Shown here one piece after another: positions 36,830 to 38,925 of a DNA stretch of 64,000 bases (positions are counted from its first letter, which is position 1; every line of letters starts with the position of its first letter). The position numbers and the translations under genes are program-made. Under the pieces are notes generated by a model. That model saw only the letters and a list, made by a program, of their open reading frames with translations. It was not told where the DNA came from and ran no database searches. Origin of the DNA: Ligilactobacillus ceti DSM 22408 (lineage in GTDB: Bacteria; Bacillota; Bacilli; Lactobacillales; Lactobacillaceae); assembly GCF_000423245.1 (NCBI RefSeq), contig NZ_AUHP01000012.1:1-64000 (forward strand), read 5' to 3'.

Positions 36830-37615
36830 TTAACGTCTTTTCACTTGTATTTTAGTTATAAAATAATGACTTAATAACATATTCACCAAAATAGAACAAA
36901 CACTGAAACTTAATAACAGTGTACTATCCCAAGATCCTTTTTCTGAATAGCCTAAAAATAATAAAATAAAATCTTGCACCCGACCATCATAATCTAATAA
37001 GAAACCTAGTAATAACAGCAAAGCTTGAAGACCGATAATCACGAAGACAGCAATTAAAACTAATTGTTTTTTTCGCGCCAACATACTAAATAAACCACCA
37101 ATCGTAAAACCAATAAAACAAAATCCCCATAAAATTAATAAAGAAAATCCAAATGATCCTAATTGTAATAAAACTTTTGATTTAACACCTGTCATATAGA
37201 AATTTTGAAAGACATTAACCAGATCATAACTGGTAATACCTAATAATCGTGAAATCTCAGTAAAACCAAGATCTAATACTTCTAAACAAAAACCAAAAAC
37301 CAAAATAACTAATGTCTTAGCTTTCCAATACGTATTACGCGATAAACTATTTTGCATAAAATATTTAAAATCACGATAATTCAAGAAAGTTAATATAAAT
37401 AACACAAACATTAACACCGAAAAATAATCTTGAATAAATAATCCTGTGAAAAATCCTCCAAAAGAAAATGGCTCATCAGTATTCACCCAAAACAATAACA
37501 TAAAAGCACTTCGTACAATTGAAAAGGCTAATAGACCAATTAAAACATTCATGAAGATTTTTAAATAACGCCGACTTAACACCTTAAAAGCATATTTTTC
37601 TTTAATTGTTAACAT
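36830..37615 (-). CDS. ABC transporter permease-like membrane protein (YtrC-like context)
   Basis: This 261-residue protein has six predicted helices (first at about 24-50, last at about 232-255) with short loops, fitting an ABC-2-type permease. I chose the ATG at 37615 because AGGAGGG lies 8 bases upstream; the start overlaps the ATPase stop by 14 bases, so translation is coupled. It is the third gene of a GntR-ATPase-permease operon, an arrangement seen for YtrA-controlled transporters that respond to wall stress or bacteriocins. The substrate is unknown. Confidence 0.8.
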   Translation of the reverse strand: MLTIKEKYAFKVLSRRYLKIFMNVLIGLLAFSIVRSAFMLLFWVNTDEPFSFGGFFTGLFIQDYFSVLMFVLFILTFLNYRDFKYFMQNSLSRNTYWKAKTLVILVFGFCLEVLDLGFTEISRLLGITSYDLVNVFQNFYMTGVKSKVLLQLGSFGFSLLILWGFCFIGFTIGGLFSMLARKKQLVLIAVFVIIGLQALLLLLGFLLDYDGRVQDFILLFLGYSEKGSWDSTLLLSFSVCSILVNMLLSHYFITKIQVKRR

Positions 37616-38486
37616 AAGCATCACCCTCCTCATCTTGAATTAAATGTACAAAAACTTGATCCAAACTTAATGTTTCAATTTGCACGGTGGTTTGTTGCGT
37701 TAATTCTGCTGGCAATTCCCCTAAAATATAATATCCATGTAAATTACCTAATTTTTCATGACCAATAACATGTAAATCATGAATATAAGGAGCTAAATCT
37801 TCTTCACTACCTAAAACTAAGTACGCTTCAGCTAACAACTCTTCAACTTCTTGATTAACTACAATTTTTCCATTTTGCATAATCAAAACACGTTGAATAA
37901 TTTGACTAATTTCATCAATTAAATGAGTCGCAATAATAAATGTCCGTGGTTTCTTTGTATAAGTATTCAATAGCTCTTGATAAAATAACTTTCTATGTTG
38001 CGAATCCAAACCTAAAACTGGTTCATCTAATAAAACATATTCGGCAGGAACACATAAAGACATAATTAATTTAAAAATCGTTTTATACCCAGTGGATAAT
38101 TTGGCATATTTTTGATCAAGATTCAATTCGAATTTTTCACTTAATTCCAATGCATATTCTTGATCAAACTCACCATAAAAACCGGCTGTATCCGCTATAA
38201 TTTTACTTAATTTCATTCCTGGATAGTACATATCATTACTATCAACTAAATAAATTTTAGCCATTAAATCGTCATATTCCCAGACAGATTGATGATCATA
38301 AAAAACTTCTCCACCATCTGTTAAAATCCGACTAGCAATAATATTTAACAAAGTACTTTTACCGGCACCATTACAACCAAACAAACCGTAAATCATTTCT
38401 GGTTGAAAAGTTAAATTGACATCAGCTAATACATTTTTATTTAGAAAACTTTTATAAATATTTTTCAACTCTAAACTAGACATCAT
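37602..38486 (-). CDS. ABC transporter ATP-binding protein (GntR-operon type)
   Basis: The 294-residue ATPase shows Walker A FGCNGAGKST near residue 38, a degenerate signature LSTGYKTIFKL near 132, Walker B YVLLDEPVLGLD near 153 and switch His in IIATHLIDE. The LSTG signature and C-terminal extension (about 210-294) are typical of YtrB/BcrA-like ATPases. The start ATG at 38486 overlaps the GntR gene end by 11 bases. It should energise the following permease. Confidence 0.9.
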   Translation of the reverse strand: MMSSLELKNIYKSFLNKNVLADVNLTFQPEMIYGLFGCNGAGKSTLLNIIASRILTDGGEVFYDHQSVWEYDDLMAKIYLVDSNDMYYPGMKLSKIIADTAGFYGEFDQEYALELSEKFELNLDQKYAKLSTGYKTIFKLIMSLCVPAEYVLLDEPVLGLDSQHRKLFYQELLNTYTKKPRTFIIATHLIDEISQIIQRVLIMQNGKIVVNQEVEELLAEAYLVLGSEEDLAPYIHDLHVIGHEKLGNLHGYYILGELPAELTQQTTVQIETLSLDQVFVHLIQDEEGDAYVNN

Positions 38487-38850
38487 CTTGCTCTCTTTCT
38501 TCTTGTTGTAACATCGCAATTAAATCAGCTTGCGTTAATTCTAAATATTCTGCTTCTTTTAATAATGGAACTAAATAATCTTGATAAAATGCAGCACGCC
38601 GTTCTAAAACAATTTGTTCACGTGCCCCTTGTTTAACAAACATTCCTAAACCACGTTTCTTTTGTAATAATCCTTTATTAACTAGCATATTCATCCCTTT
38701 TAAGACCGTAGCTGGATTAATATGAAGTTTTTGTGAATATTCTGTGGTGGATGGAATTTGTTCTTCTTCTTGATAGACTCCCGTAAAAATCGCATTTTCA
38801 ATTTGAATCGCAATTTGTTGATAAATTGGTTTTCCATTGGTAAATTCGAT
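38476..38850 (-). CDS. GntR-family (YtrA-type) regulator with apparent ATC start codon
   Basis: The frame runs from 38850 to a TAG at 38476 (124 residues): an N-terminal winged helix (EFTNGKPIYQQIAIQIENAI, TTEYSQKLHINPATVLKGMNML, KRGLGMFV) and a short C-terminal helix pair, as in YtrA. No ATG, GTG or TTG lies before the helix-turn-helix. AGGAGG sits 8 bases before an ATC at the exact place where homologues begin, and an in-frame TAG just upstream rules out an earlier start. The first Met in frame (38694) would delete the DNA-binding domain. So either ATC initiates translation or the base is an error. It likely represses its own operon through the upstream inverted repeat. Confidence 0.8.
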   Translation of the reverse strand: MEFTNGKPIYQQIAIQIENAIFTGVYQEEEQIPSTTEYSQKLHINPATVLKGMNMLVNKGLLQKKRGLGMFVKQGAREQIVLERRAAFYQDYLVPLLKEAEYLELTQADLIAMLQQEEREQDDV

Positions 38851-38871
38851 GGGGATCCCCTCCTATTACTT

Positions 38872-38925
38872 ATATACTTAATCACTAATGCAATTAAGTA
38901 TATTACACTTTATTTTTTTTCGCAA
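38872..38925 (-). promoter_or_regulatory. GntR-operon promoter and 32-bp inverted-repeat operator
   Basis: On the minus strand TTGCGA (38925-38920), a 17-base spacer and TATACT (38902-38897) form the promoter. The -10 lies inside a perfect inverted repeat: ATATACTTAAT (38872-38882), ten bases, ATTAAGTATAT (38893-38903). The arms sit where a bound GntR dimer would block RNA polymerase. Confidence 0.75.

Follow-up and report, generated by a model that had tools for sequence, protein, structure and literature searches.

The window, a stretch of 64,000 nucleotides from Ligilactobacillus ceti DSM 22408, carries on its minus strand an open frame for a GntR-type (YtrA-like) regulator of 124 codons, counted from a proposed ATC start, and a TAG stop codon (38476..38850). 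The protein belongs to the GntR superfamily by its match to PF00392, the GntR winged helix-turn-helix (HTH) domain, over residues 10–72 (38.7 bits, cut-off 27). Members of the YtrA subfamily have about 120 residues and no large effector domain, and their genes lie beside that of an ABC transporter ATPase. The L. ceti protein has 124 residues, about 50 of which follow the HTH, and its gene adjoins an ABC transporter ATPase gene. No YtrA-specific model was found among its Pfam and NCBIfam hits, and the PmtR model (NF047563) scored 41.9 bits, below its curated cut-off of 200. The ATPase gene (37602..38486, minus strand) encodes 294 residues from ATG 38486-38484 and overlaps the end of the regulator gene by 11 nt. 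It is followed by a gene for a 267-residue protein (36830..37633, minus strand), a likely permease without a Pfam or NCBIfam match. Among the 59 closer homologous loci, to which the ATPase count and the operator matrix refer (distant L020-L030 and L043-L048 were left out), all 59 contain a relative of the ATPase, and 15 contain weak matches to the 267-residue protein, many loci ending inside that gene.

Upstream of the regulator gene we predict an operator, TTAATTGCATTAGTGATTAAG (38877..38897, minus strand), from a matrix built on 21 distinct homologue operators. It directly follows the -10 hexamer TATACT of a predicted sigma-70-type promoter (TTGCGA, 17 nt, TATACT; 38897..38925, minus strand), with which it shares one base. 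The promoter is a consensus match, of which the region holds three where 1.8 are expected. Operator-like sites of the type TTAGTTACATAAGTAATTAAC occur in 34 of the 59 homologous loci and are absent from the other 25; those shown lie upstream of the regulator and directly after a TATA(G/C)T-like -10 box. The predicted L. ceti operator is the top match to the matrix in 455 kb of the genome (score 17.0, next 13.9) and scores below every homologue site (lowest 22.4).

The start region of the regulator reads ...TAATAGGAGGGGATCCCCATCGAATTTACC... on the minus strand. An 18-nt site looked for elsewhere in the 64-kb window did not recur there. In the frame of the regulator, TAG 38865-38863 is followed by GAG, GGG, ATC 38856-38854, CCC and ATC 38850-38848, after which the codons GAA TTT ACC AAT GGA AAA CCA ATT TAT lead into a frame that stays open to TAG 38478-38476. 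As the original prediction held, the in-frame TAG (38863..38865, minus strand) excludes an earlier start, and a consensus AGGAGG (38864-38859, minus strand) lies 8 bases ahead of ATC 38850-38848. It had also described the regulator as fully open with no ATG, GTG or TTG before its DNA-binding domain, and we found none in frame between the upstream TAG and Met53, the first canonical start (ATG 38694), which falls within the HTH match. A list of open reading frames with ATG, GTG or TTG starts accordingly retains a remnant of 72 residues from Met53. Like genes with AUN starts, the regulator offers no ATG, GTG or TTG able to start its conserved frame.

Two in-frame ATC codons lie between the upstream stop and the conserved part of the frame, and they differ in their distance from the Shine-Dalgarno (SD) sequence. 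Among 79 GGAGG-preceded frames of the source genome, drawn like the comparison sites for SD energy and accessibility from uncurated open frames that exceed 100 or 150 codons and have a plausible start, the spacer between GGAGG and the start is 7 or 8 nt long in 36 and 2 nt long in a single frame. ATC 38856-38854 (minus strand) stands only 2 nt after AGGAGG, inside the SD duplex, so ATC 38850-38848 (minus strand), with its 8-nt spacer, is the likelier start; we rejected the upstream ATC on this spacing.

The SD sequence of the regulator is extended, AGGAGG-G-GATCC (38853..38864, minus strand), and is complementary to the 16S rRNA tail ..GGATCACCTCCTTTCT at all but one position. A search for the 16S gene of the source genome did not find it, so the tail was taken from two congeners. 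GGAGG-G-GATCC pairs with TGGATCACCTCCTTTCT of that tail, the single mismatch lying opposite the A of CACC. The predicted duplex energy of -18.6 kcal/mol ranks third of 415 sites in the genome sample, with a stronger duplex at 2 of the 414 others. All five letters of GATCC are present after GGAGG-N at the regulator, while the 83 GGAGG-preceded frames have none of them in 72 cases, one in 7, two in 3, three in 1 and more than three in 0. The site thus has the features of AUN-start genes in S. aureus: an SD placed at a usable distance, here 8 nt, and pairing with the 16S tail that extends beyond the core, here at -18.6 kcal/mol. Two or more extension letters are present at 3/3 non-canonical sites and 4/83 of these frames (Fisher p 3.4e-4), a comparison that we do not rely on since the sites were chosen after inspection. 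In the initiation complex of S. aureus, A1546 is flipped out and the AU after the SD pairs with A1543 and U1544 (PMC13009471); in our reading, the mismatched and extended positions of the L. ceti SD correspond to these three nucleotides.

The extended SD overlaps a palindrome, GGGGATCCCC (38860-38851), which had been proposed to hide the ribosome site in part. A 5-pair hairpin at the palindrome (-4.8 kcal/mol) does overlap the SD. The mean unpaired probability of this SD is 0.25, compared with a median of 0.42 for the 83 GGAGG-preceded frames, which lends the proposal weak support. However, 17 of the 83 frames are even less accessible, and the leader folds no better than its shuffled versions (z -0.58, with 52 of 200 shuffles equal or better). 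We therefore discarded the palindrome as a strong cover of the ribosome-binding site. Complementarity to the 16S tail is a better explanation of GGATCC than hiding of the ribosome site, and the palindrome can be read mainly as a part of the extended SD.

We compared the start region with those of homologues gathered from the genomes of relatives, among them Paucilactobacillus, Apilactobacillus and Lentilactobacillus, and from 60 further stretches. The comparison comprised 136 loci, 125 homologues passing an E-value of 1e-12 and 109 distinct start regions, and it represents a part of all homologues, as one search alone matched 209 of 397 genomes. Plasmid relatives (84 records, none with an identity of 60% or more) were left out of the start counts. 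A canonical start lies nine codons before a conserved Pro in 102 of the 109 regions (ATG 83, TTG 13, GTG 6) and nearby in the remaining 7. Homologues had been expected to begin at ATC 38850-38848; this was incorrect, since in the protein alignment the start column of the 102 regions falls two codons upstream, on ATC 38856-38854. None of the 109 distinct regions has a non-canonical start, so the AUC trait is not conserved, and the putative ATC start is so far unique to the L. ceti genome among the homologous regions compared. The closest homologue of the regulator is about 61% identical. Relative to the homologous locus L055, the operator lies at the same distance from AGGAGG (12 nt in both), whereas AGGAGG and the conserved -6 codon are 11 nt apart in L. 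ceti and 16 nt apart in L055. We infer that the start region was shortened relative to its orthologues, removing the aligned start codon.

The homologues also relate SD strength to the start codon. In a set of 95 distinct homologous sites whose start lies at -9, GTG and TTG starts have a median SD energy of -15.6 kcal/mol against -12.0 kcal/mol for ATG (p 2.6e-4, kinship uncorrected), and GATC follows the SD at 6 of 19 GTG or TTG sites against 4 of 76 ATG sites (p 0.004, kinship likewise uncorrected). Thus, in this regulator gene strong SDs accompany weak starts. The L. ceti site, which combines the weakest codon with a strong SD, falls on the trend, although an SD stronger than -18.6 kcal/mol is present at no fewer than 6 of the 95 sites.

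The conservation of the protein was assessed in an alignment of 55 of 66 rows, 11 distant ones having been removed. Conservation of at least 90% among the 54 other homologues marks 40 columns, and the L. ceti regulator keeps 36 of them. Its four departures are the start column (-7, the ATC itself) and three positions in the C-terminal tail, none being in the HTH. It is also the most deviant of the 55 sequences (0–3 departures in the others) and has the lowest mean identity (0.496). The retention of the HTH, the predicted operator and the ATPase argues either for an autoregulated operon that still works or for a loss of recent date.

A codon-usage survey of 455,296 bp (33% of the genome) with 360 coding-like frames listed 12 frames with coding signal ahead of the first canonical start. 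Five of these arise from masked N runs, three are short (67–88 codons) and look antisense, and two have a canonical start at codon 20–23. The two clear cases are the GntR regulator and jag/khpB.

The jag/khpB gene lies on the same contig, outside the window, from position 147676 onward on the plus strand (G000:C2; L113:3676-4458), and has an apparent ACG start (GGGAGGGGATTACA-ACG). Its product contains Jag_N, KH and R3H domains, and the next canonical start, at +49, is reached only where the Jag_N domain ends. The start column is readable in 25 of 26 genus genomes and holds ACG in 8, ATG in 12, GTG in 4 and TTG in 1. Five of the genomes with ACG, the source genome (G000), G007, G008, G017 and G020, lack any canonical in-frame start between the upstream stop and +14; in G018 the sole upstream canonical start is at -14, and in G005 and G012 an ATG lies one or two codons earlier. 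As the ACG recurs across genomes, it is not a base error in one assembly.

The infC gene of the source genome (L108, near 161150 of G000:C1) was compared with infC loci L159-L187. The start column holds ATA in 19 of 19 genus genomes, counted by eye, after TGGAGGTGA. In 17 of the 19 no canonical start lies between the upstream stop and ATA, while L167 and L168 carry TTG and GTG in frame inside the SD. Over 30 loci the column holds ATA in 26, ATT in 1 and ATC in 1, with ATA one codon earlier in 2; the ATT (L173) and ATC (L163) are from relatives in the same order, several of which have an in-frame ATG two codons ahead of ATA. In Escherichia coli, infC starts with AUU. The regulator resembles infC in an AUN start not ending in G, of the kind discriminated by IF3, and differs from it in that infC probably regulates itself in a loop that runs through its own product IF3, whereas gntR would only follow the IF3 level. 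A lineage with relaxed start selection resting on strong SD pairing, encompassing infC AUA, jag/khpB ACG and the AUC of the GntR regulator, is a tentative idea that we hold to be possible rather than probable.

Non-AUG starts with an extended SD are already known as a kind. S. aureus uses AUA to start infC, ccpN and citZ and AUU to start cvfC1, and extended SDs accompany the infC, ccpN and cvfC1 starts; in reporter assays, ccpN, cvfC1 and citZ reach about 10% of the AUG level in RPMI, and ccpN up to 30% in BHI (PMC13009471). A search for AUC in the main text of that paper gave no match. The closest likeness is to ccpN of S. aureus and Bacillus subtilis, a transcriptional repressor with a non-canonical AUA start and an extended SD (PMC13009471). 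It differs in belonging to another regulator family and in that its AUA is conserved between both genera and was mapped in S. aureus by Ribo-Ret and reporters (PMC13009471), whereas the L. ceti AUC is known from the sequence of one genome. A repressor whose weak start raises the basal expression of its operon is also found in lacI, through its GTG (PMC11445065), although GTG is a canonical weak start and lacI is of another family and serves a sugar operon. From the YtrA-type GntR-ABC operons of Lactobacillaceae and relatives, with which the L. ceti locus shares the HTH core, the ATPase relative and, in 34 of 59 loci, the operator type, it differs in its start, as all 125 homologues compared begin with ATG, GTG or TTG. 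The suggestion that a repressor kept scarce by its start codon would be new for this family fits the 109 distinct regions, none of which is non-canonical; outside the family, repressors that begin at a non-canonical codon have been described (PMC13009471).

A published list of bacterial initiation triplets includes AUC; the same paper calls the central U universally conserved and states that SDs that are over-extended are also discriminated against (PMC4611024). A further study concerns drop-off and reinitiation in vitro (PMC10158994). Searches of the open-access PMC literature gave, among the matches listed, no GntR/YtrA regulator with a non-canonical start and no natural AUC start with an extended SD; "AUC initiation codon" in bacteria had no match there, and no natural bacterial ACG start appeared in titles or abstract openings among the matches listed. 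All 64 codons were reportedly covered by Hecht in 2017. A GntR/YtrA regulator would be an addition to the known kind.

The reading we favor, and consider probable, is that the regulator gene is alive and has a working, weak AUC start at 38850-38848. AUC is the best-supported start because the HTH residues are intact, the operator is of the family type, the SD spacing is ordinary and the extended SD is exceptional. It is further supported by the trend of strong SDs with weak starts, by infC ATA and jag ACG as other apparent near-cognate starts in the genome, and by the S. aureus precedents. Points against it are the canonical starts of all homologues compared, the deviant protein, an operator weaker than those of homologues and of a type absent from 25 of 59 loci, the somewhat low accessibility of the SD, the discrimination against over-extended SDs, and the jag sites with ACG, at which congeners show a GATCC extension that is shorter or lacking. 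The main rival, to which we give about a third of that credence, is a recent loss of the start codon by a small deletion or substitution, leaving a regulator that is no longer usefully made and an ABC operon that is constitutively open, with the SD, operator and open frame as remnants preceding decay. It would account for the sole case among the 125 homologues compared, for the shorter distance from AGGAGG to the -6 codon relative to L055, for an operator weaker than those of homologues and for a protein with the most departures and the lowest identity among the 55 aligned. Against this, 124 codons have stayed free of stops with all conserved HTH residues retained, the operator remains the best site in 455 kb, and the SD is far above the genome norm, which a dying gene had no reason to gain. 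The SD may nevertheless predate the loss, because strong SDs also occur at ordinary starts (the sites with stronger duplexes and the four ATG sites with GATC).

A base error at 38848-38850 of the assembly, hiding a canonical start in the true genome, is unlikely. In its favor, the ATC is known from one assembly and all 109 distinct homologous regions have canonical starts. Against it, a start at 38850 would still fall two codons later than in 102 of them. A G/C substitution is also atypical of short-read assembly errors. With only two clear startless frames among 360 in the surveyed third of the genome, and jag ACG recurring in congeners, start-destroying errors are not common in this genome. 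We regard as very improbable a start elsewhere, at Met53, at ATC 38856-38854 or by frameshift from an upstream frame (GTG 38885). Such codons exist mechanically, but a start at Met53 would remove most of the HTH, ATC 38856-38854 has a spacing shared by one of 79 frames and lies inside the SD duplex, and no SD was seen by eye before GTG 38885.

For an AUC start, we propose that fMet-tRNA would decode AUC in the P site while the 30S subunit is kept in place by the long SD:anti-SD duplex, and that discrimination by IF3 would keep output low. Acting at the predicted operator, the regulator probably represses the promoter of its own operon. A weak start on the first cistron would then let the autoregulated operon settle at more transporter per repressor, with a set point that would follow IF3 activity. 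By analogy with ccpN and lacI, a repressor held at low levels by its weak start is plausible.

A gene finder restricted to ATG, GTG and TTG cuts the regulator to 72 residues without most of the HTH, so that genes of this sort may go missing from annotations, be truncated or be classed as pseudogenes. If natural, an AUC start behind a strong SD offers a test of the extent to which a strong SD makes up for poor codon recognition, and the operon offers one of the shift in the ratio of repressor to transporter when the first cistron, under autoregulation, has a weak start. A conserved start codon without a central U in jag/khpB would be a bigger surprise than the AUC of the GntR regulator and, if true, would break the stated universality of the central U in bacterial start codons. 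If relaxed start selection is true of this lineage, the level of IF3 would, through weak starts, govern both an RNA-binding protein and a regulator of transport.
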